Source: Gammaproteobacteria bacterium (GTDB taxonomy: Bacteria > Pseudomonadota > Gammaproteobacteria > Steroidobacterales > Woeseiaceae). Taken from it: 64,000 nt of DNA. The DNA lies in assembly GCA_009937615.1 (NCBI GenBank), contig JAACFB010000009.1, forward strand, positions 1 through 64,000. Direction: 5' to 3'. A model generated the notes under the pieces. It made no database searches and was not told the DNA's origin. It saw nothing but the letters and a program-made list of their open reading frames with translations. The translations under genes were made by a program, and so were the position numbers. The stretch's first letter is position 1; the number at the start of each line of letters is the position of its first letter. Shown piece after piece: positions 16,325-64,000 of this stretch.

Positions 16325-16376
16325 TGCGTCTTTCCTGAAGCCTAATACTGAAGCCAGCTTGGGACATTAATGCAAA

Positions 16377-46103: not shown

Positions 46104-46442
46104 ATGTCGCAGATTACCTGGACCGATTTTCAAGCCGTTGAGATTCGAGTGGGCACGATCACTGAAGCCGTCGAATTCCCCGAGGCGCGCAGGCCGGCGT
46201 GGAAGTTAACGGTCGATTTTGGAAATAAGGTCGGTACGCGCCGTTCATCGGCACAGATTACCGATCTTTATGGGCGAGAAGAGCTTGTTGGCAAGCAGGT
46301 CGTAGCGGTCGTCAATTTTCCGCCGAAGCAAATCGGGCCGTTCTCCTCCGAGTGCCTCGTGACGGGGTTCGTCCAGGCTGACGGCAGCGTTGTGCTGGCC
46401 GTGCCCGACAAGCCGGTAGCGAACGGGCTGCGTTTAGCGTAG
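46104..46442 (+). CDS. csaA: CsaA-like tRNA-binding chaperone
   Basis: A 112-residue single-domain EMAP/tRNA-binding OB-fold protein. Signature: FQAVEIRVGTITEAVEFPEA, RRSSAQITDLYGREELVGKQ and VVNFPPKQIGPFSSECLVTG. CsaA binds tRNA and unfolded or preprotein chains. The ribosome site GAGAGGAG precedes the ATG, 85 nt after the hsp20 terminator, so it has its own promoter. Confidence 0.92.
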   Translation: MSQITWTDFQAVEIRVGTITEAVEFPEARRPAWKLTVDFGNKVGTRRSSAQITDLYGREELVGKQVVAVVNFPPKQIGPFSSECLVTGFVQADGSVVLAVPDKPVANGLRLA

Positions 46443-46608
46443 ACACGGGGCGGTCATTCGGAATAAGTTGGCAAGGTTGAAGCGTGTGGCGCCTGCCAGG
46501 GCGCTGACAGGCGTCCGAGACGGCGATTTGCGTCGCCAATGGTCAGAGGCAGCATCAGCCCGGCCCGAAACTAGCTTCGAATAAACAAGAGATTTATTTA
46601 ATAAATAT

Positions 46609-47574: not shown

Positions 47575-47815
47575 ATCGGGTTTTGGGATGCTTTGGGTCG
47601 CCACCGACTTGGAGTGTTCAATAGCGGCATAATCCTGAAGGGATACACGCTTGGACCGGCTCACAAGTACCGGTTGCGGCGAGACTTGCGTCTGACCCGG
47701 GTGTCTTGAAGAACCGAATCGTGAGTTGGGCTCCTTGCACATTTCATTGATAGCGCCGCGACCTGTCGGCCGCTACAATGCAGGCCCGATTTTCACAGTA
47801 AGGATTGCCCTGGAC

Positions 47816-48643: not shown

Positions 48644-48691
48644 CTGTTCATCCTTTAATAGCTATATTTTCTAGGTAGTTATTGGCTTCCT

Positions 48692-49588
48692 ATGGCAAAA
48701 GATCTTGAAGTTGCGATTCTGTTTGCCGACGTTGTCGGCAGCACACAGCTGTATGACAAGTATGGCGACACCAAGGCCAGCGAGACCGTCGCCCTGTGCC
48801 TGGACGTCATGAAGGAAGCGACGCATCAGTTCAACGGCAGCGTGATCAAGACGATCGGCGACGAGGTCATGTCGACGTTCCCGAGCGTCGACGACGCGAT
48901 GCGCGCAGCGATGCAGATGCAGTCGCGTATTTCCGTTGACAGCAAGGATGAAGATCGCATTCCGGTCTCCATTCGCATCGGCTGTCATTACGGGCCAGTG
49001 GTGCAGGAGCAGAACGACATATTCGGTGCTGCCGTTCACACGGCCAACCGAATGACCTCGCAGGCAAAATCGCGGCAGATCGTCATTTCGGGCGAGACAG
49101 TCGCAAAAATGAGCGAAGATCTCAAAAAACAAACGCGGCAGATCGATCTCGCGACCGTTCGCGGGAAGCTCGACGAAGTCGCTTTGTATGAACTACTTTG
49201 GAATCCCGACGAGGCAACGAGCATGTTGCCGACAATCGAGTGGGAGAGTCAGCAGCGAAACGTGTCGAAAGTCGTGCTGACGTTTCGCGACCAGACGTGT
49301 GAAGTCGACGACCAACACAAGAGCGTCATCATGGGGCGCGCGGACGACAACGATCTCGTCATAAAGGGCAACCTGATCTCGCGCATTCACGCAAAGGTCG
49401 AGATGCGGCGCGGCAAGTTCATTCTCGTGGACCAGAGCACGAACGGCACGTTTCTGCAGAACGTGCAGGGCGAGGAAAAGTTCGTTCGCCGTGACAGCAC
49501 AGAACTGACCGGCGAGGGGACAATCGGACTTGGGCGGCTCGAACAGCCGGGTTCGCCGCTTGCGGTGCACTACAAGACAATCGAATAG
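48692..49588 (+). CDS. Class III nucleotide cyclase fused to an FHA domain
   Basis: A 298-residue protein. Residues 5-175 are a class III cyclase: metal Asp in FADVVGST and in IKTIGDEVMSTF, the Lys of IKTIGD and Asp of NDIFGAAV fit adenylate specificity. The transition-state Asn of the usual VNxAxR is His (VHTANR), so activity may be altered. Residues 200-290 form an FHA domain with GRADDND, SRIHAKVE and STNGTFL, which binds phosphothreonine. A link between Ser/Thr phosphorylation and cAMP is inferred. No kinase is adjacent. Confidence 0.88.
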   Translation: MAKDLEVAILFADVVGSTQLYDKYGDTKASETVALCLDVMKEATHQFNGSVIKTIGDEVMSTFPSVDDAMRAAMQMQSRISVDSKDEDRIPVSIRIGCHYGPVVQEQNDIFGAAVHTANRMTSQAKSRQIVISGETVAKMSEDLKKQTRQIDLATVRGKLDEVALYELLWNPDEATSMLPTIEWESQQRNVSKVVLTFRDQTCEVDDQHKSVIMGRADDNDLVIKGNLISRIHAKVEMRRGKFILVDQSTNGTFLQNVQGEEKFVRRDSTELTGEGTIGLGRLEQPGSPLAVHYKTIE

Positions 49589-49608
49589 CGCCGCGCTGAA
49601 CGCCGGTT

Positions 49609-51357
49609 TCAGAGTTTTTCTAGTTTTTGAGCGAGTCGCTGCTGTTCGACGCGGAGTGCCTCAGGCACACGGTCGCCAAACGTGTCCAGGTAGTCGCCGA
49701 AATGCTGATTCTCGGTCCTCCACCGCTCGACATCGATCCTGAGCAGCTCTTTCATGGTCTCGTCGCTGATATCCAGTTCGGCCGTATCGATGCCACCGTC
49801 CTCGGGAAGGAAGCCGATCGGCGTTTCCTTTGCGCCGATATCGCCTTCGCAGCGGTCGATGATCCAGCGGAGAACTCTCAGATTCTCGCCGAAACCTGGC
49901 CAGAGGAACTTCCCGTCCTGGTCTTGCCGAAACCAGTTGACATGGAAAATCTTCGGCAGCTTGTCGGTCCGATCCGGAAACGACATCCAGTGCGCCCAGT
50001 AATCGGCAAAGTTATAGCCGCAAAAGGGCTTCATCGCCATCGGGTCGCGTCGGACAACGCCGACCTCGCCAATGGCGGCCGCCGTGGTTTCTGATCCGAC
50101 GCTGGCCCCGACCATGACACCGTGCTGCCAGTTTTTGGCCTCGTAGACAAGGGGCGCGAGCCTGGCGCGCCTGCCGCCGAATACGATCGCCGAAATCGGC
50201 ACGCCCTCCGGGGCATCCGCCAGTGCCGAGTAACTCGGGTTGTTTTTGGCCGCAACCGTGAATCGTGAATTCGGGTGCGCCGCTTTACCAATTTGCGGAT
50301 CGTACTCGCGGCCCTGCCAGTCAAAAGCGGGCTCGCCGGTTTGCTTATCCTCCCACCACGGTTCGTTGTCCGCGGTCCGCGCGACGTTGGTAAAGATCGT
50401 GTCGTGGGTGATCATATCGAACGCGTTTTTATTGGTCTTGGCATTCGTGCCGGGGACGACGCCGAAATAGCCCGATTCCGGATTGATGGCGCGCAGCCTG
50501 CCGCTATCGTCCAGGTGCAGCCAGGCGATGTCGTCACCCAGGGTCCAGACCTTCCAGCCAGGCATGGAGTGAGGCGGTATCAGCATCGCGAGGTTGGTCT
50601 TGCCGCAAGCCGAGGGAAACGCGCACGCAAGATAGTGAACCGAGCCATTCGGGCTTTCCAACCCCACGATAAGCATATGTTCGGCAAGCCAGCCCTCGTT
50701 TCGCGCCTGGTAACTGGCGATACGCAGTGCGTGGCACTTCTTGCCGAGCAGCGCATTGCCCCCGTAGCCAGAGCCGACGCTCATTATCGACAGCTCGTCC
50801 GGGAAATGCATGATGAAGCGTCGTTCCGGATCAAGGTCGCCGGTCGAGTGCAGGCCCTTGACGAATTTGCCTTCGCGCTCGATTCGTTCGAGAGCGGCCG
50901 ATCCCATGCGTGTCATCAGCCTCATGTTGACGGCCACGTAGGGGCTGTCGGTAATTTCGACGCCACAGCGGGCGTACGGAGAATCGATTGGACCCATGCA
51001 GTACGGGATCACATACATCGTGCGCCCGCGCATCGCGCCTTCGAACAGGGCGTCCATCTTCGCGCGCGCCTCGGCCGGGTCCATCCAGTTGTTATTCGGA
51101 CCAGCGTCCTCCTGCTTTCGCGTGCAAACGAAAGTGAGATGCTCGACGCGCGCGACATCGCTGGGATCCGAGAGGTGCAAATAGCAGTTCGGATAGGTCT
51201 CCGGGTTTAGCGCTGACAGCGTGCCACTGACCGTCATTTCATCGACGAGCTGCTGGAACTCGGCATCGCTGCCGTTGCACCAGTGGATTTCGTTCGGCTG
51301 CGTATGGTCGGCAACCTCGTCTACCCAATCCTGCAGGGCCGAAAGTTTCGATGTCAT
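49609..51357 (-). CDS. pckG: Phosphoenolpyruvate carboxykinase, GTP type
   Basis: A 582-residue enzyme making PEP from oxaloacetate and GTP, central to gluconeogenesis. The start is the ATG at 51357. Motifs: CAFPSACGKTNLAMLIPPHS (P-loop), WTLGDDIAWL (metal), the HALRIASYQARNEGWLAEHM region and GRRARLAPLVYEAKNWQHGV (guanine-binding type). A TATAAT -10 sits 52 nt upstream. The CRP-type site beyond it could serve this gene too. Confidence 0.94.
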   Translation of the reverse strand: MTSKLSALQDWVDEVADHTQPNEIHWCNGSDAEFQQLVDEMTVSGTLSALNPETYPNCYLHLSDPSDVARVEHLTFVCTRKQEDAGPNNNWMDPAEARAKMDALFEGAMRGRTMYVIPYCMGPIDSPYARCGVEITDSPYVAVNMRLMTRMGSAALERIEREGKFVKGLHSTGDLDPERRFIMHFPDELSIMSVGSGYGGNALLGKKCHALRIASYQARNEGWLAEHMLIVGLESPNGSVHYLACAFPSACGKTNLAMLIPPHSMPGWKVWTLGDDIAWLHLDDSGRLRAINPESGYFGVVPGTNAKTNKNAFDMITHDTIFTNVARTADNEPWWEDKQTGEPAFDWQGREYDPQIGKAAHPNSRFTVAAKNNPSYSALADAPEGVPISAIVFGGRRARLAPLVYEAKNWQHGVMVGASVGSETTAAAIGEVGVVRRDPMAMKPFCGYNFADYWAHWMSFPDRTDKLPKIFHVNWFRQDQDGKFLWPGFGENLRVLRWIIDRCEGDIGAKETPIGFLPEDGGIDTAELDISDETMKELLRIDVERWRTENQHFGDYLDTFGDRVPEALRVEQQRLAQKLEKL

Positions 51358-51408
51358 TTTGTCAGTTCCCGGTTGCCGCGTTACGGCACAACTGCTGCAG
51401 GGTGCCGA

Positions 51409-51414
51409 ATTATA
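51409..51414 (-). promoter_or_regulatory. Probable -10 box of pckG (TATAAT)
   Basis: Perfect TATAAT on the minus strand, 52 nt upstream of the start. No good -35 is seen at standard spacing, so an activator may be needed. Confidence 0.5.
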
Positions 51415-51602
51415 CAGACGCAGCATCAAAGTTCAGTAATCAAGTTACGCGAGAAATGGTTTTGGACGCCGAATCAGCAAGTTGTCGAGTCCAGGGGAGA
51501 ATTTAACAGAAGCCGTGGTGACGAAGACTGAGTCGAGCCGAATCGGCTGGGAAGAGTGCCTCGCCTCGCCTCGAACACCTTCGCTGCTATCGATCTCAGC
51601 CA

Positions 51603-51618
51603 TGTGAGCCATTTCACA
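51603..51618. promoter_or_regulatory. Perfect CRP/Vfr-type site TGTGA-N6-TCACA
   Basis: An exact consensus palindrome in the pckG/DUF11 intergenic region. Class I geometry would place a +1 near 51672 with the A/T-rich AAATTAT at 51662-51668 as -10. This would put ATG 51667 inside the promoter and favour the TTG at 51769 as the start of the first DUF11 gene. A CRP gene is not in the window. Confidence 0.6.
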
Positions 51619-51646
51619 GTTACATCGTGAGGACGGTCACAGTTCG

Positions 51647-51736
51647 ACCGGAAATCCGGCCAAATTATGGAAACACTGGCCCCCGTCCCGGAAAGTTGTC
51701 ACCAACCGGGCAGGGCGGTGAGATCCGCCCTGTTTT
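51647..51736 (+). promoter_or_regulatory. Structured leader of the first DUF11 gene (attenuator-like)
   Basis: Three stems in series: CCGG / CCGG, CCCGG / CCGGG (51687-51710) and CAGGGCGG / CCGCCCTG (51711-51732), the last followed by TTTT. The last stem is terminator-like, suggesting attenuation. No match to a known riboswitch was recognised. Confidence 0.45.
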
Positions 51737-51768
51737 GCTATCGGCTGCACGACGATTTGGGACTAAAA

Positions 51769-52785
51769 TTGGACAAACATCCGACAATCACGGATACCGG
51801 AAACCGAGGTCTGCCGTTGGCTGCCGCCCTGGCAGTCATTGGTCTATTTGGCGCGATGCCGGTACTTGCGGCAGGGACGCCAGCCGGCACGCTGATCGAG
51901 AACACCGCGACCGTCAGTTTCGACCTTGCCGGCACGCCGATATCGCTGCAGTCGAATACGACGACGATCACCGTGGTTGAGCGCATTGACGTCGTCGTAA
52001 CCCTGCAGAGCTCCCAGCTGCTCGTCTCGCCGAGTGCGGTAGACCAGGCCGTATTGTTTCGGGTGACAAATACCGGCAACGGCAACGAAACATTCAGCCT
52101 TCTAATCGACAGTACCCTGGTTGGTGACGACTTCGATCCGGTTCCGGCCGTGCCGGCGATCTACTTCGACAGCGACGGCAGCGGTGACTTCAATGTCGGT
52201 GACCTGGCCTACGATCCAGGGGTCAATGATCCCGTGCTGACCGCCGATGCGTCGGTCGATGTGTTTCTTGTGAATGACATCCCGGGCACGGCGCTGAACG
52301 GCCAGGTCGGCTTTACCCAGCTGACAGCGACATCGACCACTGGCACGGGCGTGCCGGGCACGTCGTATGCGGGCCTCGGCGACGGTGGAGTAGACGCGAT
52401 TATCGGCACGACCCAGGGGGAGGCAGCCGCGGTCGGCGAGTACCTGGTCTCGAACGTCGAGCTCAGTTTCGTCAAGACGCAGGCCGTTGCAGACCCTTTC
52501 GGCGGTACTGAACCGGTCCCGGGCGCCACGATCACCTACACGGTTACGGTCGAAGTGACGAGCGCGGGCATCGCCTCCGCGAGCGCGCTCAGTGACCCAA
52601 TTCCGGTTTATACAACTTACGTACCCGACAGCATCAGGTTGAATGCCGCCGCTATCTCGGACGGTGCCGATGCGGACGCGGGTGAACTGGATACCTCGGG
52701 CGCGCCGACCGTCGTCGTGCGCCTGGGTGACCTGACCCAGGCAGACGGCATTCAGACCGTCGTCTTCCAGGTGACGATTGATTAA
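51769..52785 (+). CDS. Exported DUF11-repeat protein (first of cluster)
   Basis: About 338 residues. I favour the TTG at 51769 (GGGA 6 nt upstream); an ATG at 51667 opens the same frame. The signal peptide ends AMPVLAAG. Then comes the module AGTPAGTLIENTATVSFDLA, shared with two other proteins of this cluster, a Ca-binding-like acidic stretch (YFDSDGSGDFNVGDLAYDPG) and a C-terminal DUF11 repeat (PGATITYTVTVEVTSAGIAS). It ends right after the repeat, with no anchor. Function unknown; probably surface-exposed or secreted. Confidence 0.72.
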   Translation: MDKHPTITDTGNRGLPLAAALAVIGLFGAMPVLAAGTPAGTLIENTATVSFDLAGTPISLQSNTTTITVVERIDVVVTLQSSQLLVSPSAVDQAVLFRVTNTGNGNETFSLLIDSTLVGDDFDPVPAVPAIYFDSDGSGDFNVGDLAYDPGVNDPVLTADASVDVFLVNDIPGTALNGQVGFTQLTATSTTGTGVPGTSYAGLGDGGVDAIIGTTQGEAAAVGEYLVSNVELSFVKTQAVADPFGGTEPVPGATITYTVTVEVTSAGIASASALSDPIPVYTTYVPDSIRLNAAAISDGADADAGELDTSGAPTVVVRLGDLTQADGIQTVVFQVTID

Positions 52786-52822
52786 CGCAATGATCTTTCA
52801 GGAGCGATAGGAGCGGACCACT

Positions 52823-53305
52823 ATGAAAATTTTAACGACTTTGATGGTTTTGATGATGGTGTCGAGCACGCATGCGCTGGCTCAGCAGCAAGGGCATCTG
52901 GATGTAACCACGAGCGTGCAGAAAGAAGAGGTCACCGTCGATGAAAGTGGCCAGTCCGAGACGAAGCTGGTCGAGGCAAACACGGTTGTGCCCGGGGACC
53001 GGGTCATTTACACGATCACGTTTCGTAACACTAGCGAAGAAACCGCGGAAAACGTCGTGATCACGAATCCGATTGCGGAATCGCTGACCTACGTTGCGGG
53101 CTCTGCATTCGGTCCCGGAGCCATCATCGAGTTTTCGGTCGATGGCGGCCAAACCTACGCCCTGGCCGAAGAACTGACCGTCACCGAGGACGGCGAGACA
53201 CGTTCGGCGCACCCCGGTGATTTCACACACATACGCTGGGCCATGCAGAACGAGTTGGCCGCCGGGGCCCAGGGAACCGCGCGTTTCGCCGCCGTATTGG
53301 ACTAG
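52823..53305 (+). CDS. Exported single-module DUF11 protein
   Basis: A 160-residue protein with signal peptide (MKILTTLMVLMMVSSTHALA). The mature part is one DUF11 repeat: VVPGDRVIYTITFRNTSEET, AENVVITNPIAESLTYVAGS. It lacks the N-terminal module of its neighbours and any anchor. AGGAG-like site upstream. It is 37 nt after the first gene, so part of one operon. Confidence 0.78.
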   Translation: MKILTTLMVLMMVSSTHALAQQQGHLDVTTSVQKEEVTVDESGQSETKLVEANTVVPGDRVIYTITFRNTSEETAENVVITNPIAESLTYVAGSAFGPGAIIEFSVDGGQTYALAEELTVTEDGETRSAHPGDFTHIRWAMQNELAAGAQGTARFAAVLD

Positions 53306-53371
53306 CTGCATGGCCTGGCACCCGTTTTTTACGAATGGAAAGGAAGTTTTGATAAACCAAGGAGTACCGTG

Positions 53372-54514
53372 ATGAAAACTGTAATACAAAGAGGCGGCCT
53401 GTTTCTCAGGCTGGGGATGACGGCGGCTGCGTTGTTGCTCGGGCAACACGCGTTTGCGGCCGGCACCACGGCGGGAACTGTCGTATCGAACCAGGCAACT
53501 GTCGCCTACGCTGTGGCTGGCAATGGGCAGACTCCGATTCTTTCGACTGCGGCAGGATCGGCGCCGGGAACGTTTGATCCGACAACGTTTGTGGTTGATA
53601 ACAGAGTCGATTTCTCGCTGGTGACGGTCGATACCGCACTGCAAACGACCGGCCTCGGTCAGGCCAACGTTCCAACGCGTTTCACGCTGACAAACGAAGG
53701 CAACCTGGTGCAGGATTTCCGGCTTGATCCGGCCAACCTTCCAGACACCACGGCGGATCCGTTCGGCGGAGCGCAGGATGACAACATCGATATGGCCGCA
53801 CTCACAGCCTATGTCGATGACGGTGATGGTGTTTGGGAGCCGGCTAGCGATGTTGCTACATACGTAGACGAGCTCGCACCGGATGCGAGCGTAACAATCT
53901 GGGTGGCTGCTACCGGGCCGGCAGCAGGCATAACCGGGGACGTCGCAGTTGTCGACCTGGACGCAACGGTTCGCGAGGGCGGCGTCGCTAACGCGGAAGG
54001 TGGGCCTGTCACGGACGACATCGGTGTCGCGGACGATCCGGACACGGTTCAGGTCGTCTTTGCGGACGGTGCCGGGCCCGGGCCTGGTGACGGCGTCGAG
54101 ACCGCTCTAAGCGGCTACCAGGTTGCCACCGCCGCGCTGGAGGTTAGAAAGGACGTTACGGTCATCAGCGATCCGTTCAACGGCACGACGAATCCCAAGG
54201 CTATTCCCGGTGCTATCGTCGAATTCTCGGTGCAGGTCACAAACAATGGCACTCAGGCTGCGACCGGAGTCGTTGTTACCGACGCGATCGACGCGCTGGT
54301 GACGTTTCTGCCGGACGCCTATGGTGCCGGCCAGGATGTTCGCTACGACATCGATGGTGGTGCCGATCAATTCTGTGATGCAACCGATGGCACGGCGACG
54401 GATTGTGATCTCGCCGGTACCAGTCTGACAGTCGGCGGTTCGACACTTTCCCTCGATGTGAATCCGTCTGAAACGCTGACGGTCAGCTTCAGGGTCGAAA
54501 TCCCGGCCTCCTAG
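53372..54514 (+). CDS. Exported DUF11-repeat protein (third of cluster)
   Basis: About 380 residues. ATG 53372 is preferred over GTG 53369 because AGGAG is 7 nt upstream. Signal peptide ends HAFAAG. The next residues GTTAGTVVSNQATVAYAVAG repeat the module of the first protein. The middle is an acidic beta-rich domain (LTAYVDDGDGVWEPASDVAT), and the C-terminal DUF11 repeat is PGAIVEFSVQVTNNGTQAAT with TVSFRVEIPAS at the end. Function unknown. Confidence 0.78.
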   Translation: MKTVIQRGGLFLRLGMTAAALLLGQHAFAAGTTAGTVVSNQATVAYAVAGNGQTPILSTAAGSAPGTFDPTTFVVDNRVDFSLVTVDTALQTTGLGQANVPTRFTLTNEGNLVQDFRLDPANLPDTTADPFGGAQDDNIDMAALTAYVDDGDGVWEPASDVATYVDELAPDASVTIWVAATGPAAGITGDVAVVDLDATVREGGVANAEGGPVTDDIGVADDPDTVQVVFADGAGPGPGDGVETALSGYQVATAALEVRKDVTVISDPFNGTTNPKAIPGAIVEFSVQVTNNGTQAATGVVVTDAIDALVTFLPDAYGAGQDVRYDIDGGADQFCDATDGTATDCDLAGTSLTVGGSTLSLDVNPSETLTVSFRVEIPAS

Positions 54515-54534
54515 GCGCTGACCGAACGATCACG

Positions 54535-57500
54535 GTGCTAGAAAGACGGTACAAGCCGGACCGGCGCCAGGCCACCCGAAAGGGTGGCGGGCACCGCGTC
54601 ACGCACTGGCTGGCGCCACCTGGCGCGGGCCAGTGCGGCCTTGTACAAGAACGGTCTCGGGGGGAACAGCAGTTCCCCCCGAGGCATTTATGGCGTTCTG
54701 CCAAAGCGGCAGTAAACGGCCGATTCAGCCTGCTTTTTACCGCGATTTTCATGACTGGAACCGCCCTCGCAAGTCCCCCGGGCGCCATCATTTCCAGTAC
54801 GGCGTCGCTCAGTTACCTGGACTCGGGCGGAACCGGCACGATCATTACGAGCAACACGGTCGAGCTCATTACCGCGGTTTTGCGAACCCCGGCCAGCGTC
54901 GAGTTTACGCGTGTCGTTGCTGCGGGCAGCGGTGACTACGAGGAGACCGTGGGACCAGCTGCCTGCAGTCAGGGCGGCGAATTTGTCGCCCTGGCGGATC
55001 CCGTTCTGAGTGGCGGGGCAGCGGTAGACCCGGCGCAGGTTCAGGACGTCAGGGTTGCGTCGTCCTACAACGGCGGCGAACCGTTGTTTCTGAGGCTCGA
55101 TGACGCGGACCAGAACCTGGATTTCCAGGTTTTGGATACGGCGGCCGTAACCGTTGTCAATGTTGCGACCGGAGACGCCGAGGCGATCCAGCTGACTGAG
55201 ACCGGGCCAAATACCGGTATTTTTGCCGGTTTCGTACCATCGGCGAACGCTGCCGCGATATCGACTGACTGCGTGCTCCAGGGAAGCCTGGATTCATCCG
55301 TGCGGGTTACTTACACAGACCCTGTCGATGCGGCCGATGTTGCGGAGGCCAATGCGATTCTGGATCCGGTGAGCATTGTCTTCGAGTCGCGTAGCGGCTC
55401 AATCGTCGATGGGGTCCAGATCGAGCTTGTCAATGCGCTGACCGGCGCTCCGGCTGTCGTGTACGGCAATGATGGAATCAGTGCGTTCCCGGCATCAATC
55501 ACAGCGGGCGCGACCGTCACCGATAGCTCCGGAACGAGTTATGCATTCGGTCCCGGCGAGTACCGGTTCCCGGTTGTTCCCGACGGTGACTACCGGCTGA
55601 TAGTCACCCCGCCTGACGATTACGCAGCGCCCTCGAGTGCGAACATCTCCGATTTGCAGCGGCTTCCAGGCGCACCGTTCGCGTTGGGTCCTGCATCTTT
55701 CGGAGAACCATTTACCCAAAGCGGCGATTTCTCGTTTGACTGGGATATCCCGTTAGACCCGCAGGAATCGGCGCTTTTCCTGCAGAAGCGTACGACGACT
55801 ACGATAGCAGCGCCCGGGGACTTTGTGCGCTACGAACTGGTGCTTGAAAACGCTTCTGTGGTTGGCGCTGTCGCAAATATTCAAATCGTCGACCGGTTGC
55901 CGACAGGCATGCGTTTCGTGCCAGGTTCCGTGTCCATCGACGGAGAAGATGCGCCCGATCCCGAAACAGGCCCGGACCCGGGTTTACTGGAATTCACGCT
56001 ACCAGTGCTGGCCATTGACGAGCGAGCCAGCATTTTCTATGTCGTCGAGGTTGTCAGCGGCACGCGCGAGGACGAACTGGTCAATCGCGCGACGGCTTTC
56101 GCAGGCGGCGGCCTGGTCTCGAACGAAGCGACGGCGACGATTCGTCTCAAAGAGGACCTGTTTCGATCAACCGGAACGATTATCGGCCGCGTACTCGAGG
56201 GCGATTGCGGCCAGGTGGCGTTCAGTGAGGAACAAGGTGTCGCCGACGTGCGCGTCTACCTCGAGGACGGCCGCTACGCCGTGACCGATGCGGGCGGCAG
56301 ATTTCATTTCGAAGGCCTCAAGCCCGGCACCCATGTTGCGCAGCTGGATACCACGACCGTCCCCGATTATCTTGACGTGGCTGGCTGCGATGATGCGCCC
56401 GGGTTTGCCGGGCGAGCCGACTCCCAGTTCGTCAGGTTGTCTCGTGGCAGCCTGCTGCGGGCCGATTTCTATCTGCTCCGTAAACCCCGCCCGGAGGGCC
56501 GTATCGACCTGGAGCTCAAAAACCTCGGCACCGACAACGCGGAGCAGGTCGCCTATGAGCTGAATCTCAGCGGTACGGGCAATGTCTCGATCGGGAATAT
56601 CAATCTAATGCTGTTGCTCCCGGACGGCGTTGATTACCTGCCCGGATCGATGCGTGTCGACGGCACCCAGGCTGGAGATCCGGATGTTCAGGATACCTAC
56701 CTTTCATTGTCGATCGATGACCGGGCGGGCAACTGGACGAGCAAAGTCGAGTTTCTTGCCGCTATCGGCAGGAGTGTTAGCGGCGAAATGACGACCAAAG
56801 CGATGGCCAAATTTGACTCGCCGGTCGCGGCCGGTCAGCAGACCCCGGTTGCCGAGACAAAAATGACCAGGGAACAGGCTGTGAGCAAGAACGAGGGTTA
56901 CGTTCTCGATCTCAAGTTCGCCGTAATGTCCGACACGCTGTCCGTGGACGACAAGCGGCAGCTCGACCGGCTTGTACAGGACTGGCAGGGCGTAAGCGAT
57001 GTCCAGATCGGTGCGATCGGCCATAGCGACAGTCAGCCGATCGCCAGACGTAACCGGCACCTGTTCGCCGATAACTACGCGTTATCGCAGGCAAGGGCGA
57101 TGGCGGCAGCCTTCTACGTTGCCGACGCGCTTGGCGTGCCGCCTGAGAATATCCGCGTGGAGGGCCGCGGACCCGACAACCCCATCGCCAGTAATGCGGA
57201 CCCGGCGGGCCGGTTGGCGAATCGTCGAGTGGAGATGGTCTTGTCCGGGACAAGGTTCAGCAATCCTTCATTCCTCGAAGTGACGCAGGCGTCGAGCGGG
57301 ATGCAGGTTATCGCGACGCAGGGCGCGATCCCGGGTACGGAAGCGGAGCCGGACCGCAAGGCCGGGGGTGGCGATGAAAATGCCGGGATGCCGTCGTCCC
57401 AGATCGAACCACCCATCGATTCGCTCGAGCCGGGTATCGCGATGCTGCTGCCTGAACGCTCGTTCCAGCCGGCCATCCCATCGACCAAGATATCGATTCA

Positions 57501-60500
57501 GCATGAGCCGCAGCAGAGCGTAAAACTCTACCTCAACGAGTTGCCGGTCAGCCCGTTGAACTTCGACGCGCTGGCAGTCAACGCTGCTCGCAGCGTCGCC
57601 GTATCGCGCTGGAAGGGCGTCGATCTTCAGGATGGCAACAATGTGATTCGAGCTATCGTATCGAACGCGGATGGCAGCCGCGCGAAATCGATTCGACGCG
57701 AAATTTACTATGCGGGAGCGGCGATACGCGGCGAGTTTGTCGAGGAGCTGTCGACACTGGTAGCCGATGGCAAGACTCGACCGATCATCGCAGTACGCCT
57801 GTTCGACCGGACCGGGCAACCCTCGCGAGCGGGCACGATTGGCACTTTCCGAGTCGACGCGCCCTATCGATCGCAGTGGGATGTCGAGAATGAGCGGAAA
57901 AACGAGATCGTTTCGATCGGCGCACGCGAACCCGGTTACCGGGTCGGGGCAGACGGAATCGCCTATGTCGAGCTTGCGCCGACTACGCGGTCCGGCGAGG
58001 TAACGCTGAATCTTAAATTCGAGCGCCAGCGAGAACAGCAGCTGCGCACCTGGCTCAGGCCGGCCGCGCGCGACTGGATACTCGTCGGCTTTGCCGAAGG
58101 CACCGCGGGTTACAACACGTTGTCCAAGAATGCGGGCGCAGCCCTCGCGGCAGGCCTCGAGGAGGGTTACGCCGACGAGGGGCGGATCGCGTTCTTTGCC
58201 AAGGGCAGCATCAAGGGCGAGTATCTGCTGACGCTCGCCTACGACTCGGATCGCGAGCGCAGCGACACGCGCAACAACTTTCAAACTGTCGTGGATCCGA
58301 ACGCCTACTACCCGCTGTACGCCGACACCAGTGAGCAGCGCTTCGAGGCTGCGAGCCAGCGCAAGCTTTACGTCAAGCTCGAGCGTGGTCAGTTCAATGC
58401 GCTGTTCGGTGACTTCAATTCTGGCCTGTCCGTCACGGATCTGGCGCGGTACGAGCGCTGGTTCAACGGATTCAAGAGCGAATACCGAGGCGATACGCTC
58501 GGATATACGGCCTTTGCCGCCGAGTCGAGCCAGGGTTTTCAGCGCGACGAAATTCGCGGCGACGGGACGTCAGGACTTTACCGCCTGAGCATCGCGCCGG
58601 TCATTGCCAATAGCGAGAGTGTCCGCATCGAGGTGCGTGATCGATTTGACAGCGGCATCGTGCTGCGCGAAACCAAGCTCAGCCGCTTTCTAGACTACAA
58701 CCTGGATACCCTGGATGGCACGATTTTCTTCAAGAAGCCGGTGCCGAGCCGTGACCTCGACTTCAACCCGGTTTACATCGTGATCGAATACGAGACCGCA
58801 TCAACTGCAGACGAAGATCTCGTCGCAGGCGGTCGGGTATCGGTCAGGACGGCTGGCGATGAGGTCGAGATTGGCGCAACGTATATCACCGATGACACGA
58901 GCGGAGCCGAGGCAGACCTCACGGGCGTCGATGCGCGCTGGCAAATCGGTGACCAGACGCTGCTCAAAGCCGAATACGCGCAGACGCAAGCCGTCGTCGC
59001 CGGCATCGAACAGGACGGCGAGGCTCACAGCATCGAGCTCGAGCATAACGGCGAAAAGGTCGATGTCCGGGCCTACCTTCGCGAAGTCGAGGACGGTTTC
59101 GGACTGGGCTACCAGTCCGCTGCCGACGCCGGTGTCCGCCGCCTCGGCGTAGACGCGCGGGTGGAGGTCAGGGACAGCATTTCGGTCGAAGGCGAGGCGG
59201 GCTGGCAGCAGAATCTCGAGACCGGCGATATTCGCAACCTGGTCCGCGCGCAGATGCGCTACGACCGCAAGTCGTTTTCCGGCACATTCGGCCTGACGCA
59301 CGCTGAAGACAAGTTCGAAGATGACGAGGTTCGTTCGAGCGATCTTGCCGAGATGGGGGTATCGAAGAGAATTCTCGACAGCAAAATGACCCTGCGGGCG
59401 ACCGGCAGCACTTCGTTGTCGGGAGATACCGAAAACTCGGATTTTCCATCGCGATTCGTCGTTGGTGCGGACTATTCCATCATGAGCGGTGTCGACCTCG
59501 TGGCTGAGTACGAGGAAGCAAGCGGCAGCGGAATCGACGCGACGATGAGCCGCCTGGGCGTCAAGGCGACGCCCTGGAATCGCGGCCAGATCAATACGTT
59601 TCTGACCAACGAAGTCACCGAGTTTGGCCCGAGGCTGTTTGCGAACGTCGGCCTGATTCAGGGCTTTCAGCTCAACGAGCGCTGGGTCGTCGACGTTGGC
59701 ATCGACCAGGCGAATACGCTCGTGGACGACGACGCGCGGATCTTCGATCCCGACCGCGAGCTGGTATCGGGGTCGCTGAATGAAGATTTTCTCGCCGTCT
59801 ATACGGGTGCGATGTACAGCGCCGAGGCATGGAGCGCCAACTCGAGGATCGAGTACCGCAATTCGGATACCGAGGAACGCGGCTCACTGCTGGTCGGCTG
59901 GTACCGTGAACCTACCGTCGGCCACGGCCTGTCCGCCGGCCTGACCGTGCTGTCGAGTGACAGTATCTCCGGTAATGAGCTCACGTCCGCGGATCTCAAG
60001 ATAGGCTGGGCCTACCGGATGGCTGACAGCACCTGGTCGTTTCTCAATCGGACGGATTTCATTTACGAGGATGCTGTCCTTGGCAGCGAGACCTCAAATA
60101 GCTGGCGCATGATCAATAATTTCAACGCCAACCGCCGTTTCAGCGCGGCGATGCAGATGTCCTTGCAGTATGCGTTCAAATACGTGCGCAGCGAATTTGA
60201 CGGTGACGGGTATACCGGTTACACGGATCTGGTTGGCGTTGACCTGCGTCGTGGCATCCGCAGTCGCTGGGATGTGGGCGTGAATACCAGCGTGTATCAC
60301 TCCTATCAGTCAAAGGTCATTGACTATGGACTCGGGCTTGATGTCGGCTTCAACCTGCGCGACAACATGTGGCTGACGCTGGGCTACAACATCACGGGTT
60401 TCGATGACAGCGATTTCAGCCAGGCACGATACACGGCCCAGGGGCCGTACCTGCGTTTCTCGATAAAGGCCGACCAGCACACGCTCAAACAAATCGCGGG

Positions 60501-60507
60501 CCGATAG
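54535..60507 (+). CDS. Giant DUF11/OmpA/beta-barrel outer-membrane protein
   Basis: A 1990-residue protein. After a long basic N-terminal part (residues 1-60, overlapping three RNA hairpins) comes a signal-like segment (FSLLFTAIFMTGTALASP) and the shared module PPGAIISSTASLSYLDSGGT. DUF11 repeat at residues 412-535, an SdrD-B-like beta domain at 546-605, an OmpA-type peptidoglycan-binding domain at about 790-900 (GHSDSQP, LSQARAMA, ANRRVEMVL) and a predicted beta-barrel from about 1180 to 1990 ending IKADQHTLKQIAGR. The OmpA domain is internal, which is unusual. Likely the cell-surface anchor for the three upstream proteins. Confidence 0.82.
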   Translation: MLERRYKPDRRQATRKGGGHRVTHWLAPPGAGQCGLVQERSRGEQQFPPRHLWRSAKAAVNGRFSLLFTAIFMTGTALASPPGAIISSTASLSYLDSGGTGTIITSNTVELITAVLRTPASVEFTRVVAAGSGDYEETVGPAACSQGGEFVALADPVLSGGAAVDPAQVQDVRVASSYNGGEPLFLRLDDADQNLDFQVLDTAAVTVVNVATGDAEAIQLTETGPNTGIFAGFVPSANAAAISTDCVLQGSLDSSVRVTYTDPVDAADVAEANAILDPVSIVFESRSGSIVDGVQIELVNALTGAPAVVYGNDGISAFPASITAGATVTDSSGTSYAFGPGEYRFPVVPDGDYRLIVTPPDDYAAPSSANISDLQRLPGAPFALGPASFGEPFTQSGDFSFDWDIPLDPQESALFLQKRTTTTIAAPGDFVRYELVLENASVVGAVANIQIVDRLPTGMRFVPGSVSIDGEDAPDPETGPDPGLLEFTLPVLAIDERASIFYVVEVVSGTREDELVNRATAFAGGGLVSNEATATIRLKEDLFRSTGTIIGRVLEGDCGQVAFSEEQGVADVRVYLEDGRYAVTDAGGRFHFEGLKPGTHVAQLDTTTVPDYLDVAGCDDAPGFAGRADSQFVRLSRGSLLRADFYLLRKPRPEGRIDLELKNLGTDNAEQVAYELNLSGTGNVSIGNINLMLLLPDGVDYLPGSMRVDGTQAGDPDVQDTYLSLSIDDRAGNWTSKVEFLAAIGRSVSGEMTTKAMAKFDSPVAAGQQTPVAETKMTREQAVSKNEGYVLDLKFAVMSDTLSVDDKRQLDRLVQDWQGVSDVQIGAIGHSDSQPIARRNRHLFADNYALSQARAMAAAFYVADALGVPPENIRVEGRGPDNPIASNADPAGRLANRRVEMVLSGTRFSNPSFLEVTQASSGMQVIATQGAIPGTEAEPDRKAGGGDENAGMPSSQIEPPIDSLEPGIAMLLPERSFQPAIPSTKISIQHEPQQSVKLYLNELPVSPLNFDALAVNAARSVAVSRWKGVDLQDGNNVIRAIVSNADGSRAKSIRREIYYAGAAIRGEFVEELSTLVADGKTRPIIAVRLFDRTGQPSRAGTIGTFRVDAPYRSQWDVENERKNEIVSIGAREPGYRVGADGIAYVELAPTTRSGEVTLNLKFERQREQQLRTWLRPAARDWILVGFAEGTAGYNTLSKNAGAALAAGLEEGYADEGRIAFFAKGSIKGEYLLTLAYDSDRERSDTRNNFQTVVDPNAYYPLYADTSEQRFEAASQRKLYVKLERGQFNALFGDFNSGLSVTDLARYERWFNGFKSEYRGDTLGYTAFAAESSQGFQRDEIRGDGTSGLYRLSIAPVIANSESVRIEVRDRFDSGIVLRETKLSRFLDYNLDTLDGTIFFKKPVPSRDLDFNPVYIVIEYETASTADEDLVAGGRVSVRTAGDEVEIGATYITDDTSGAEADLTGVDARWQIGDQTLLKAEYAQTQAVVAGIEQDGEAHSIELEHNGEKVDVRAYLREVEDGFGLGYQSAADAGVRRLGVDARVEVRDSISVEGEAGWQQNLETGDIRNLVRAQMRYDRKSFSGTFGLTHAEDKFEDDEVRSSDLAEMGVSKRILDSKMTLRATGSTSLSGDTENSDFPSRFVVGADYSIMSGVDLVAEYEEASGSGIDATMSRLGVKATPWNRGQINTFLTNEVTEFGPRLFANVGLIQGFQLNERWVVDVGIDQANTLVDDDARIFDPDRELVSGSLNEDFLAVYTGAMYSAEAWSANSRIEYRNSDTEERGSLLVGWYREPTVGHGLSAGLTVLSSDSISGNELTSADLKIGWAYRMADSTWSFLNRTDFIYEDAVLGSETSNSWRMINNFNANRRFSAAMQMSLQYAFKYVRSEFDGDGYTGYTDLVGVDLRRGIRSRWDVGVNTSVYHSYQSKVIDYGLGLDVGFNLRDNMWLTLGYNITGFDDSDFSQARYTAQGPYLRFSIKADQHTLKQIAGR
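54571..54683 (+). promoter_or_regulatory. Three strong hairpins in the 5' part of the giant gene
   Basis: GCCACCC-GAAA-GGGTGGC (54571-54588), CGCACTGGC / GCCAGTGCG (54602-54637) and a perfect 12 bp stem CTCGGGGGGAAC / GTTCCCCCCGAG with loop AGCA (54656-54683). They fall inside the frame from the only usable start (GTG 54535) and encode an odd Arg/Gly/Pro-rich stretch. This looks like a 5' regulatory leader or a start-site puzzle. Confidence 0.6.
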
Positions 60508-60647
60508 TCCGATACGCGTGTCGGCAGAAACTTCCTCGTCGCCATGTCTCGCTGCGCCCGATCGCCAGCCGGGCAGACTCTGATCACGACCCTTTCACCG
60601 CATTTTTCAGCCTGTGATTCGCCGGATAAACGTGTAATCCTTGTGCA

Positions 60648-62567
60648 ATGATCAGCCTTTCGGAATTTTTCGGGGACAACAGTCCGCTCAGCAAGTTGCT
60701 GCCCGGTTTTCAGCCGCGGGCGGGGCAGGCGTGGATGGCCGAAGCTGTTGCCGAAACGATCGAGAATCTCGACAAGCTCGTGGTCGAGGCGGGGACCGGC
60801 ACGGGTAAAACGTTCGCTTACCTGCTGCCAGCCCTGTTGAGCGGTCGAAAAACGATCATTTCGACCGGGACAAAGGCGCTGCAGGACCAGCTGTATCATC
60901 GGGATTTGCCGCTGATTGGCCAGGCGATCGGCCGGCCCGTATCTACCGCGCTGCTCAAAGGTCGCGCCAACTACCTGTGTCTGCACCGCCTGGACCAGGT
61001 GACCGAGCCTGCCGACGCGCTAGCCGGTGATGTCAGGGCGATACGCGAGTGGCGACATCGGACCGAAAGCGGAGACCGTGCAGAACTTGCCACGATCGCC
61101 GAGGATTCGGCAGTTTGGCCGCTCGTGACCTCGACCGCTGAAAATTGCCTTGGGCAAAAATGCCCCGACTATTCCAGGTGCCATGTCGTCAAAGCGCGGC
61201 GCGCAGCGCAGGAAGCCGATCTCGTCGTCGTGAATCACCATTTGCTGCTTGCCGATCTTGCGATGAAGGAGGAGGGTTTCGTCGAATTTCTGCCAGGGGC
61301 GGAGGCGATAATACTGGACGAGGCGCACCAGATCCCTGACCTTGCGGTACAGTTTTTCGGTGTTGCGCTCGGTACGCGCGAGCTCGAACGCCTGGTTGAC
61401 GAGGTCTGTGCCGAGACAATCGCATTCCAGCAGCCCGAGCTGCAGCGGCGTATCGACAAGGTAGCAACTGCGGTTCGAGCGTTGCGCGCAGCGGCCCCGC
61501 GCAAAGAGGGCCGTTACCAGCTCAGCGAAGTCATCGCGGCAGTCAGCGAGACTCTCGACGCGCTGCGCCTTGCGCTCGGTGATTTACACCAGGCGATCGG
61601 CGAATTTCGTGAGGCGTCTGCCGAGCTGGAGCAACTGCATCTGCAGCTGACGGGCGCCATCGAGCGGCTCGCGCTGCTCGCCAACGACGAGACCTGGGAC
61701 GGGTTGCGTTGGCTCGAGGTCAATCCCCGCAGCCTGCGCCTCAACCTGACGCCGCTGGATGTGTCGGCTACCCTCCGCGGCATGATTGAGTCCGCTCACC
61801 AGGCGTGGGTGTTCACCTCCGCCACGCTGGCCGTTGGCGAAGACTTTTCGCATTTTCTCTCACGAATGGGACTGTCGGAGACGAGCGGACTGACGTTCCC
61901 GAGTCCTTATGCGATCGAGCAGAACGGACTGGTCTACTTGCCGCCAGGGTTGCCACAGCCGTCTGATCCCGGTCATACGGACGCGGTGCTCGAGTCCGTG
62001 ACGCCGCTGCTCGAGATGACGACTGGCGGAATGTTCTGCCTGTTCACCAGTCACCGTGCCCTGAATGCCGCAAGAAAGTGGTTCCGCAAAAACAAGAAAT
62101 GCCTTCTGGGGCGCGAGCTGCTCATTCAGGGCGATTCGCCGAGAGACGACTTGCTCCGGCGATTTCGCGAGATCGGCAACGCCGTACTGCTGGGTACGGG
62201 CAGCTTCTGGGAAGGGGTGGACGTTCGGGGGCAGGCATTGACGATCGTTGCGATCGACAAGCTGCCTTTTGGCTCGCCGGGAGACCCCTTGATGATGGCG
62301 CGGCTGGAATACATTCGCCGCGAGGGCGGCAATGGCTTCACGGCCCATCAACTGCCGCAGGCCGTGCTGGCGCTGAAGCAGGGCGTCGGGCGCCTGCTGC
62401 GAGATCAGGCGGATTACGGTGTCATTGTGCTTTGTGATCCTCGAATCACCACGAAGAGCTATGGCAAAACCTTCCTCAAGAGTCTCGAGCCTATGCCGTC
62501 TACGGCGGCGCTCGCCGACGTCGCTGGTTTCCTGGCGGCGCATGAGAGGCGGAGGGGTGTGGCTTGA
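60648..62567 (+). CDS. yoaA: DinG-family ATP-dependent DNA helicase YoaA
   Basis: A 639-residue superfamily 2 helicase of the XPD/DinG type. Walker A EAGTGTGKT near residue 47, Walker B DEAH in ILDEAHQIPD, and motif VI QGVGRLLRD. Four Cys of the Fe-S cluster are visible: YLCLHRL, NCLGQKC and SRCHV. YoaA aids DNA damage tolerance in E. coli. It overlaps tsaB by 4 nt; yoaA and tsaB are also near neighbours in E. coli. Confidence 0.94.
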   Translation: MISLSEFFGDNSPLSKLLPGFQPRAGQAWMAEAVAETIENLDKLVVEAGTGTGKTFAYLLPALLSGRKTIISTGTKALQDQLYHRDLPLIGQAIGRPVSTALLKGRANYLCLHRLDQVTEPADALAGDVRAIREWRHRTESGDRAELATIAEDSAVWPLVTSTAENCLGQKCPDYSRCHVVKARRAAQEADLVVVNHHLLLADLAMKEEGFVEFLPGAEAIILDEAHQIPDLAVQFFGVALGTRELERLVDEVCAETIAFQQPELQRRIDKVATAVRALRAAAPRKEGRYQLSEVIAAVSETLDALRLALGDLHQAIGEFREASAELEQLHLQLTGAIERLALLANDETWDGLRWLEVNPRSLRLNLTPLDVSATLRGMIESAHQAWVFTSATLAVGEDFSHFLSRMGLSETSGLTFPSPYAIEQNGLVYLPPGLPQPSDPGHTDAVLESVTPLLEMTTGGMFCLFTSHRALNAARKWFRKNKKCLLGRELLIQGDSPRDDLLRRFREIGNAVLLGTGSFWEGVDVRGQALTIVAIDKLPFGSPGDPLMMARLEYIRREGGNGFTAHQLPQAVLALKQGVGRLLRDQADYGVIVLCDPRITTKSYGKTFLKSLEPMPSTAALADVAGFLAAHERRRGVA

Positions 62568-63253
62568 AGCTGCTGGCGCTGGATACCTCGTCGGTAGCCT
62601 GTACCGTCGCACTGCAAGTCGGTACGGAGAGATACGAACGGCACGAGGAACAGCCCCGCGAACATACGAAAATCCTGCTGCCGATGATCCGTTCGATTCT
62701 GGATGATGCCGCGATCGTAGCCGCCGACCTCGATGCAATTATTCTCGGCAACGGTCCGGGTTCATTTATCGGCATGCGCATCGCGGCCTCGGTGGCACAG
62801 GGCATTGCCTACGCCGCGGGCATCAAGATTGTGCCGGTCTCCTCCCTCGCGGCTGTCGCCGCGGAAGTCTTCGCGGAACACGATGCCACTGAAGTGATCG
62901 TTGCCCAGGATGCGCATATGCACGAAGTTTATCTCGGGCTATTCAGGCGGGATCAAGACGGACTGCCCGTGCCGGCTATGCCTGAGCGGCTGCAGGCGCA
63001 GGCGCCCATTGCGGAGCTCGAGCAGGGTACGACAGCCTCCCGGGTTGCGGCCGGCTTCGGCTGGCAGCATTATCCCGCGCTGCTTGATCAGAACCGTGAT
63101 CGCATCGATTCGGTTCTCGGAGTCTGGTATCCGCGGGCGCTCCATCTCTTGCAACTCGGAGCTCGTGGAATTGCCGATGCCGTCGATCCGCAGGATCTGG
63201 CGCCGGCCTATCTGAGGCAAAAGGTCGCCGAGAAATCGTCTAAGCCTTCGTAA
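62564..63253 (+). CDS. tsaB: tRNA threonylcarbamoyladenosine biosynthesis protein TsaB
   Basis: A 229-residue protein of the ASKHA family that partners TsaD and TsaE in making t6A37. The start is TTG 62564, overlapping the helicase stop. Conserved LLALDTSSVACTVALQVGTE, GNGPGSFIGMRIAASVAQGI and VIVAQDAHMHEVYLGLFRR. The usual TFTGLR is SFIGMR. Confidence 0.93.
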   Translation: MKLLALDTSSVACTVALQVGTERYERHEEQPREHTKILLPMIRSILDDAAIVAADLDAIILGNGPGSFIGMRIAASVAQGIAYAAGIKIVPVSSLAAVAAEVFAEHDATEVIVAQDAHMHEVYLGLFRRDQDGLPVPAMPERLQAQAPIAELEQGTTASRVAAGFGWQHYPALLDQNRDRIDSVLGVWYPRALHLLQLGARGIADAVDPQDLAPAYLRQKVAEKSSKPS

Positions 63254-63258
63254 CAGTT

Positions 63259-63281
63259 CTGTAATATAGTCCTGCTGTAAT
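63259..63281 (+). promoter_or_regulatory. CTGTAAT repeat pair upstream of phoB
   Basis: CTGTAAT at 63259-63265 and 63275-63281, 16 nt apart. Pho boxes use CTGTCAT-like repeats at 11 nt; these differ in spacing and in one base, so this is only a loose resemblance. The AT-rich TAATATAGT between them could be a -10. Confidence 0.35.
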
Positions 63282-63328
63282 TCGCGACTGCGGGAGCGCC
63301 AGCTGCCGGCGCGCGTGCAAGCCTGATT

Positions 63329-64000
63329 ATGACTGCCGATAAGATATTGATAGTGGAAGACGAAGCGCCTATTCGCGAGATGATTGCGTTTCATCTTGGC
63401 CGTGCGGGTTACGAGACGGTTGAAGCCGCCAACTGCGGCGCAGCCCGAGAGTTATTGGCTGATGAACGTCCGGATCTTGCCCTGATCGACTGGATGTTAC
63501 CCGACATGAGCGGTCTCGAACTCACCCGAATGCTGAAGCGCGATTCGCAGAACAGTGACCTCGCGATCATCATGCTGACCGCGCGCGCCGATGAATTCGA
63601 CAAGATCGCAGGGCTCGAGAGTGGTGCGGACGATTACGTCACTAAGCCATTTTCGCCTCGCGAACTCATAGCTCGTATTCAGGCCGTATTGCGCCGGGCC
63701 AAGGGTGACAATGATGAGACGGTGGAGGCCGGTGTTCTTGCACTGGACGCTGCCGGGCATCGCGTGACGGCCTGCGGCCGTGAGGTCCGGCTTGGCCCCA
63801 CAGAGTACCGGCTGCTTAAGTTTTTGATCACTCATCCCGACCGTGTTTTCAGTCGCGCCCAGCTGCTGGATCGTGTTTGGGGCGCCAATGTCTATGTCGA
63901 GGAGCGCACTGTTGATGTACACATTCGCCGGTTGCGTAAGGCCCTGGCGTCTGAGAGCGCGAGCGACTACATCCAGACGGTCCGTGGCGCGGGATACCGA
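63329..64000 (+). CDS. phoB: Phosphate regulon response regulator PhoB (3' end cut by window)
   Basis: The first 224 residues are present; about 5 are missing. The receiver (ILIVEDEAPIREMIAFHLGR; phosphoacceptor in LALIDWMLPDMSG; MLTARAD; VTKPFSPREL) and the winged-helix domain (LGPTEYRLLKFLITHPDRVF, ERTVDVHIRRLRKAL and VRGAGYR) match PhoB. PhoR would be expected just beyond the right edge. Confidence 0.9.
   Translation, partial: MTADKILIVEDEAPIREMIAFHLGRAGYETVEAANCGAARELLADERPDLALIDWMLPDMSGLELTRMLKRDSQNSDLAIIMLTARADEFDKIAGLESGADDYVTKPFSPRELIARIQAVLRRAKGDNDETVEAGVLALDAAGHRVTACGREVRLGPTEYRLLKFLITHPDRVFSRAQLLDRVWGANVYVEERTVDVHIRRLRKALASESASDYIQTVRGAGYR

Follow-up and report, generated by a model that had tools for sequence, protein, structure and literature searches.

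A four-gene cluster encoding hairpin-less DUF11 proteins and a giant OmpA/β-barrel protein in a marine-sediment gammaproteobacterium: candidate subunits of a chain joined by donor hairpins

Fibres built by strand donation and domains closed by isopeptide bonds are each already known. In the threads of the archaeon Sulfolobus acidocaldarius, as described in the available part of the report (PMC9715654), secreted β-subunits (Saci_0406) are linked in head-to-tail fashion through a donated N-terminal strand, with proposed isopeptide bonds, and a co-encoded protein, the putative cap Saci_0405, lacks one half of the joint. The DUF11 domain has been renamed CLIPPER, and the accessible part of that report (PMC12617251) presents a structure (PDB 9IFR) containing a Lys715–Asn806 isopeptide bond with Asp748 nearby and states that the bond of CLIPPER-type folds links the first and penultimate strands. 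Here, we describe a cluster of four genes, A, B, C, and G, located in a window of 64,000 nt (the whole stretch of DNA analysed; contig JAACFB010000009.1) from the genome of a marine-sediment gammaproteobacterium (3.36 Mb in 94 contigs). The sequences make it somewhat probable that the four proteins form one head-to-tail chain by donor-hairpin complementation, with isopeptide bonds probably welding the joints at A and C.

A, C, and G appear to open with a β-hairpin, and A, B, and C appear to close with a DUF11 domain that lacks exactly this hairpin. In the proposed arrangement, the hairpin of one subunit would fill the open domain of another. The open domain of A or C would supply Lys and Asp and the incoming hairpin Asn, giving an intermolecular Lys–Asn isopeptide bond, probably by self-welding. 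B, which could only accept, would cap the end away from G, and G, which could only donate, would form the base, its OmpA domain holding peptidoglycan and its giant barrel lying in the outer membrane. Only A and C have both a hairpin and an open domain; G has just the hairpin and B just the open domain, so that the order would be B-(A/C)-G; the simplest version has B at one end, A and C between, and G at the base. It is in this sense that we infer exchange in trans, a covalent bond, and a subunit order. The predicted features are as follows.

51769–52785, + strand: gene A, encoding a signal peptide, a donor hairpin, a middle domain, and a hairpin-less DUF11 domain
51871–52002, + strand: putative donor hairpin (N-terminal module) of A, with Asn29 (Asn in 47 of 55 A proteins)
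52447–52782, + strand: putative acceptor, the C-terminal DUF11 domain of A minus its last hairpin, with Lys220 and Asp260 (both in 55 of 55)
52823–53305, + strand: gene B, encoding a signal peptide and one DUF11 domain without the last hairpin and no N-terminal module; candidate acceptor only
53369–54514, + strand: gene C, encoding a signal peptide, a donor hairpin, a middle domain, and a hairpin-less DUF11 domain
53459–53617, + strand: putative donor hairpin (N-terminal module) of C, with Asn40 (Asn in 79 of 83 C proteins)
54134–54511, + strand: putative acceptor, the C-terminal DUF11 domain of C minus its last hairpin, with Lys260 (82 of 83) and Asp304 (81 of 83)
54535–60507, + strand: gene G, the giant putative anchor, with a long leader by reading of the frame
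54769–54906, + strand: putative donor hairpin at the start of mature G, where Ser stands in place of the Asn of all 15 aligned relatives
55768–56148, + strand: complete DUF11/CLIPPER domain inside G, with Lys366, Asp401, and Asn465 (invariant in 16 of 16)
56209–56337, + strand: CarboxypepD_reg/SdrD_B-like domain of G
56917–57225, + strand: OmpA-like domain of G, with Asp780 and Arg802 (both invariant in 16 of 16)
58048–60504, + strand: C-terminal outer-membrane β-barrel of G (AlphaFold2 model of residues 1105–1938)

By analogy, the archaeal threads are a close functional precedent, the likeness being one of function and drawn from descriptions. They belong to Archaea and have no outer membrane, OmpA domain, or barrel, and their proposed bond links Asn57 of one subunit with the amino end of Asp24 in the next subunit but one (available part of PMC9715654), whereas a CLIPPER-type Lys–Asn bond would be formed here. 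CLIPPER adhesins such as B9T28_05395 of Acinetobacter silvestris (9IFR) share the domain family, the Lys/Asp/Asn triad, and an OmpA-like anchor with the present proteins; however, in the available part of their description (PMC12617251), they contain complete domains with intrachain bonds, whereas here the domain would be divided between chain ends or chains. The sequences fit a split hairpin, as donor-strand exchange would need, but the cluster differs from chaperone-usher pili in having no Usher or PapD-type Pfam match, more barrel strands, an OmpA domain, and no recognized chaperone gene. Neither a description of this A-B-C-G operon nor one of a bacterial fibre using naturally split isopeptide domains as joints was found among titles and the openings of abstracts, most subscription papers lying outside this search. 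If the proposal is correct, the cluster would encode a self-locking, possibly covalently welded bacterial fibre, which would give a function to an operon spanning several phyla (by record titles) and might provide natural tag/catcher pairs.

The initial annotation had recognized four consecutive DUF11-type proteins, the last of them a giant with an OmpA domain and a barrel, and profile searches agreed with it on both points. B and C scored above the Pfam DUF11 cut-off of 24.6 bits (33.4 and 31.1 bits, respectively), and G scored just under it (24.5 bits) and 54 bits against TIGR01451. A reached 15.3 bits in Pfam, below the cut-off, but 29 bits against TIGR01451 (cut-off, 24 bits), via which alone it is assigned. 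G also matched OmpA (37.4 bits; cut-off, 27.2 bits), CarboxypepD_reg/SdrD_B-like domains, and OMP β-barrel families. Searches for PDB relatives by sequence gave none for A, weak matches for B and C, and one chance-level match for the barrel (E = 0.73). As far as can be read from the frames, the four proteins carry Sec-type signal peptides, and the start codons of A and G are TTG and GTG, respectively.

A short module follows the signal peptide in three of the four proteins, reading AGTPAGTLIENTATVSF in A, AGTTAGTVVSNQATVAY in C, and SPPGAIISSTASLSY in G. A hidden Markov model (HMM) built from A N-termini matched 23 of 23 C and 12 of 16 G proteins at E ≤ 1e-3, with no match among 23 B proteins or 2680 shuffled sequences; the reciprocal HMM of C N-termini recovered 21 of 21 A proteins and only 1 of 16 G proteins. 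More generally, models of the A, C, or G N-termini detected each other but neither B nor shuffled sequences. The sharing of the module, first noticed in the initial annotation, is thus beyond chance.

This module is the apparent counterpart of the last two strands (a β-hairpin) of the DUF11/CLIPPER domain. In the DUF11 giants of three loci (L148–L150), matches of the module HMM, each weak alone, fall where complete DUF11 domains end (e.g. PTGTQIVNQATV). Across 45 DUF11 starts in 30 non-G proteins of at least 600 amino acids (several mutually related and not independent, and two of the best rows, from L243 and L139, themselves belonging to subunits of such systems), the HMM scored a median of 2.9 bits at 75–125 amino acids past the DUF11 start versus −0.5 bits in random windows (p = 2e-8), and its scores at four other offsets were not significant. 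In the opposite direction, an HMM of the last strands was built from 33 windows of 20 module-free giants (windows picked by pattern, some of them poor). With a threshold of 8 bits, it recognized 13 of the 56 A, 12 of the 83 C, and 34 of the 82 G proteins, none of the 93 B proteins, and 6 of 2288 background frames. All six of these background frames carry the N-terminal module, five being pieces of G and one C-like. The scores of B were also shifted upward relative to the background, none of them reaching 5 bits.

The point at which the small proteins stop is consistent with this assignment. The terminal domain of C can be aligned to the complete DUF11 domain of G (143 positions) as far as position 98, with just two residues of C left over; Asn465 of G lies ten residues past position 98. 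The alignments of A and B reach positions 86 and only 62, respectively, so that their stop points rest on the ending motif. Nearly all A (54 of 56) and B (92 of 93) proteins and most C proteins (70 of 83) end in the same strand motif, compared with 127 of 2863 other frames; sequences truncated at a contig end were excluded from the ending and last-strand counts. The small proteins, initially described as ending just after their DUF11 repeat, instead end inside it, before its last two strands. Some stand-ins of 380–1027 amino acids in distant relatives likewise have the module at their start and stop at the ending motif (e.g. ...GQTATVQFSTKVD). The subunits therefore resemble DUF11 repeats whose boundaries have moved by one hairpin, the cut falling ahead of the last hairpin instead of after it.

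Because isopeptide residues are not universal in DUF11 domains (available part of PMC12617251), conservation of the Lys/Asp/Asn triad in A and C is telling. The acceptor Lys is present in 55 of 55 A and 82 of 83 C proteins (137 of 138 together), the acceptor Asp in 55 of 55 and 81 of 83 (136 of 138), and the donor Asn of the detached hairpin in 47 of 55 and 79 of 83 (126 of 138); one A frame of at least 520 amino acids was dropped from these counts. The triad does not lie in one contiguous domain in A and C, as it does in CLIPPER domains, since the Asn is on the detached hairpin, whereas the internal domain of G holds all three residues in 16 of 16 near relatives. This internal domain aligns to PDB 9IFR (E = 6.6e-5), its Lys and Asn falling on the reported Lys715 and Asn806 and its Asp one residue off from the reported Asp (our own count from a profile alignment). 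A crude triad pattern matches 19 of 82 full G frames, and the internal triad is therefore claimed only for the 16 near relatives.

The gene set recurs as a unit. Gene order was counted only where 3.3 kb or more of sequence precedes the G frame, a filter that removed 4 of 31 own-order loci, 23 of the 80 best-matching loci, and one class locus; ten class loci without a filter-passing G frame were also left out. A-B-C precedes G in all 27 usable loci of the same order (31 loci with G). Among the best 80 of 364 G loci, 57 had enough upstream DNA, and B was found in 56 of these and A-B-C before G in 47; this set shares genomes with the same-order set (e.g. L068 and L037), and the two are not independent. 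Of the ten exceptions, one has a C gene overlapping the G frame (L101) and one lacks B (L145), and most of the others retain B and a C-like gene, with a different DUF11 protein or none in the place of A. In 28 further class loci, 17 of them usable, B was present in 16 and A-B-C in only 7. B-C-G is thus the core, B is the most constant small gene, and A is the variable part. By record title, the G loci include Steroidobacter, Povalibacter, Desulfuromonadales, a Nitrospiria, a Krumholzibacteriia, and Marinobacterium. Recurrence of the gene order in distant relatives strongly supports the earlier idea that the small proteins and the giant form one system. As to how they would join, the sequences favour split DUF11 domains, which is a more specific mechanism than the attachment to, or display through, the giant in a putative surface layer, fibre, or matrix that was first suggested.

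In a sample of 369 genomes drawn from Gammaproteobacteria, B (E ≤ 1e-15) was found in 29, the G-type barrel (E ≤ 1e-60) in 26, and both in 23. Three of the six genomes with B and no strong G match (G326, G355, and G450) have a G-like gene adjoining B, and homologues of the small proteins are thus not found mostly apart from the giant; G without B was seen in G118, G250, and G287. At the order level, 99 genomes were covered, counting that of the window; B was found in 35, of which G031, G063, and G082 have no strong G match, the G031 cluster ending at a contig end after C. Pieces of G without B were found in G025, G049, G053, and G078; in the last three, the match extends from the very beginning of the contig. 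In some genomes, B remains alone or with a truncated A between pckA and dinG, the rest of the cluster being gone (L158 in G082 and L160 in G094); other B remnants lie beside pckA (L159 in G063, near a contig end, and L162 in G060) or beside motA/motB-like genes (L197 in G190 and L201 in G311). The persistence of B where the rest of the cluster is gone suggests that B has some use of its own.

The module follows the same distribution. A 44-column HMM of the A and C modules (A9), used in genome searches at E ≤ 1e-4, identified 44 places in 23 of the 369 gammaproteobacterial genomes, all 23 of which are B-positive (hypergeometric p = 2e-31), and by their coordinates these places coincide with the cluster or with the beginning of a G frame. 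Six genomes with B have no module match (G082, G173, G190, G209, G311, and G337). Nine further genomes yielded 14 places in six, every one inside cluster loci. Among cultured relatives, the module is detectable in Povalibacter uvarum DSM 26723 and Marinobacterium profundum. In the phylum of a Geobacter-type genome, 16 places were found in 8 of 247 genomes; seven of these were inspected regionally, and B or G adjoins the module in each, the eighth being the genome of L109 (one place, on contig C49 of G551, is outside the regions inspected). As far as searched, therefore, the module occurs only in genomes with this gene system.

G consists, in order, of the N-terminal hairpin, β-domains, the complete DUF11 domain, a CarboxypepD_reg/SdrD_B-like domain, the OmpA domain, Ig-like domains (by reading), and the C-terminal barrel. 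The OmpA domain belongs to the OmpA-like peptidoglycan anchors, matching PF00691 and having the conserved Asp (D780) and Arg (R802) in 16 of 16 proteins, residues that contact peptidoglycan in anchors of this family. The barrel is predicted to have approximately 36 strands with a small inserted domain after the first strands (AlphaFold2; predicted local distance difference test (pLDDT), 80.2; predicted TM-score, 0.77); a first model from 16 sequences was poor (pLDDT, 62.5) and was set aside. Its top Foldseek matches are the Deinococcus SlpA/S-layer deinoxanthin-binding complex (7zgx and 8agd; E = 2.3e-9 and 8.8e-9), but the TM-scores are only 0.22–0.28. SlpA binds the wall via SLH domains. The SprA-type structure 6h3j is also among the matches (E = 5.6e-6; TM-score, 0.18), with a similar strand number, the SprA barrel having 36 strands. 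A structural match to FimD prompted a comparison with ushers, and homology was rejected as unsupported by sequence: no Pfam match to the Usher family (PF00577) was found in G, none was found in the window genome at E ≤ 1e-20, and hhalign of the barrel against six K-12 ushers gave a probability of 0.2% (LptD control, 4.6%). The autotransporter β-domain (PF03797) was also absent from the Pfam matches of G and its relatives. The G-type barrel profile also covers most of the C-terminal end of other giants of the same order, ranging from 1484 to 5256 amino acids (L154 at 2667–18434, L152, L153, L155, and L156), some of which have OmpA-like matches.

Several observations weigh against a donor-hairpin chain or against its covalent joints. 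Eight of the 55 A proteins lack the donor Asn (6 substitutions and 2 gaps), as do four of the 83 C proteins (1 substitution and 3 gaps). In the window's own G, Ser occupies the donor site that holds Asn in all 15 aligned relatives, and the joint to this G therefore cannot form the bond in this species. B has the Lys in 50 and the Asp in 17 of 93 proteins, with Asn at the Asp site in 69; as neither residue is conserved, a joint to B would be non-covalent. Beyond position +70 of the terminal domain, a loose Asn-strand pattern still occurs in 2 of 51 A, 13 of 81 C, and 0 of 85 B proteins, and hhalign of the short N-terminal modules against the domain of G itself was not significant. When the A module was added to the terminal domains, the Pfam DUF11 match, which without it ended at profile positions 81, 78, and 53 for the A, C, and B tails, respectively, extended to position 98 in all three chimeras, with no clear gain in score (19.2 to 18.4 bits for A, 33.8 to 32.7 for B, and 36.0 to 37.3 for C, for which a shuffled module did equally well with 36.8). 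At the gene level, 10 of the 17 class loci and 10 of the 57 best-match loci lack A or have something else in its place, and B stands without C or G behind it in G082, G190, and G311, which a pure cap role does not explain (the G190 contig begins 180 bases before the B frame, so A may be cut off). The module was undetected in three of the nine further genomes, which are Desulfuromonadia-type and have G (G464, G465, and G472). The location of the OmpA domain between the N-terminal stalk of G and the barrel argues for a periplasmic stalk and, by itself, favours a periplasmic N-terminus of G.

On mechanism, the main alternative is self-closure, in which the N-terminal hairpin of A or C would complete that protein's own C-terminal domain, and the products would be circularly permuted, closed monomers instead of a polymer. 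Both halves are indeed present in one chain, approximately 150–170 amino acids apart, with Lys, Asp, and Asn all in cis. We nevertheless consider this unlikely, because G has a hairpin and a complete DUF11 domain and B has a hairpin-less DUF11 domain and no hairpin, so that at least these two would need partners, and because the genes are kept together. It is also conceivable that the proteins are ordinary adhesins in a lateral complex, making contact by other faces, and that the hairpin they have in common is a relic of the repeat phase. Adhesins of the DUF11 type are common (available part of PMC12617251), but the near-invariant triad divided between donor and acceptor, the uniform stop point, and the confinement of the module to this system where searched make such a complex improbable.

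The location of the donor-hairpin chain and any export through the barrel are also what we infer from the sequences, and here the competing explanation carries more weight: the chain may lie under the outer membrane and tether the barrel protein to peptidoglycan, with no surface fibre. This would be compatible with split domains and is a serious possibility, if short of the favoured one, given the OmpA domain with its invariant Asp780 and Arg802 between stalk and barrel, the presence of only Sec-type signal peptides (by reading), and the fact that no export gene was noticed in the stretch 46000–64000. However, the predicted barrel is very large, and CLIPPER domains form the stalks of surface adhesins, one of which has an OmpA-like anchor (available part of PMC12617251). 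The role of B can be questioned separately, since B may be a periplasmic chaperone that shields donor hairpins rather than a tip. It would only accept, and its joint could be reversible, since Lys and Asp are not conserved. Moreover, B is short, is more constant than the other small genes, and is present without C and G in some genomes; a chaperone role is a serious possibility on these grounds, if short of the favoured one, but no PapD-type chaperone match was found in the Pfam scan. The most elaborate form of the donor-hairpin proposal would be a Gram-negative fibre of natural split isopeptide domains, welded without sortase, with a hairpin-only base, a socket-only cap, and a giant single-chain barrel of approximately 36 strands, with an inserted plug-like domain, serving as both usher-like exit and wall anchor; this combination as a whole appears rather doubtful.

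The four genes lie consecutively on the + strand at 51769–60507, separated by gaps of 37, 63, and 20 nt, and are flanked by pckA (49609–51429, − strand) and dinG (60648–62567, + strand), both named by reading of their translations. The closest kin by G are Woeseiaceae and other gammaproteobacterial metagenome genomes (64–73% identity in the first rows of the listing). In distant relatives, a further large protein gene recurs within approximately 2–3 kb upstream of G, in eight loci forming one similarity cluster (L137 at 616–7014, L133, L128, L202, L214, L217, and L108, with L215 placed differently). In five loci (L069, L081, L090, L094, and L112), a gene read as a sigma-54-type response regulator ends approximately 3 kb before G, just before A.

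A second related system was observed in the same order, in which an OmpA-plus-barrel protein of approximately 1730 amino acids lies beside a DUF11 giant (L235 with L148, L236 with L149, and L237 with L150). In L235/L148, the pair comes after genes for TPR proteins, MotA/TolQ/ExbB, two ExbD proteins, and a TonB_C protein (by Pfam), and L236 is alike by eye. In make-up only, this gene set resembles the Agl-Glt core complex of gammaproteobacteria, the function of which is called unknown in the available part of its report (PMC3169522), and the DUF11/barrel pair of the second system may, by analogy, be the outer-membrane end of an Agl-Glt-like complex. The window cluster differs from that complex in having no TolQ/ExbD-type motor genes, its flanks being pckA and dinG.

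No relatives of G were found in viral contigs, and a viral origin was therefore rejected. A perfect inverted repeat (ctcggggggaa/ttccccccgag) is present at 54656–54683, at the C–G junction and within the long leader of G. A SAM-IV riboswitch match just upstream of this repeat (54535–54641; 26.3 bits versus a cut-off of 38) was taken as chance.

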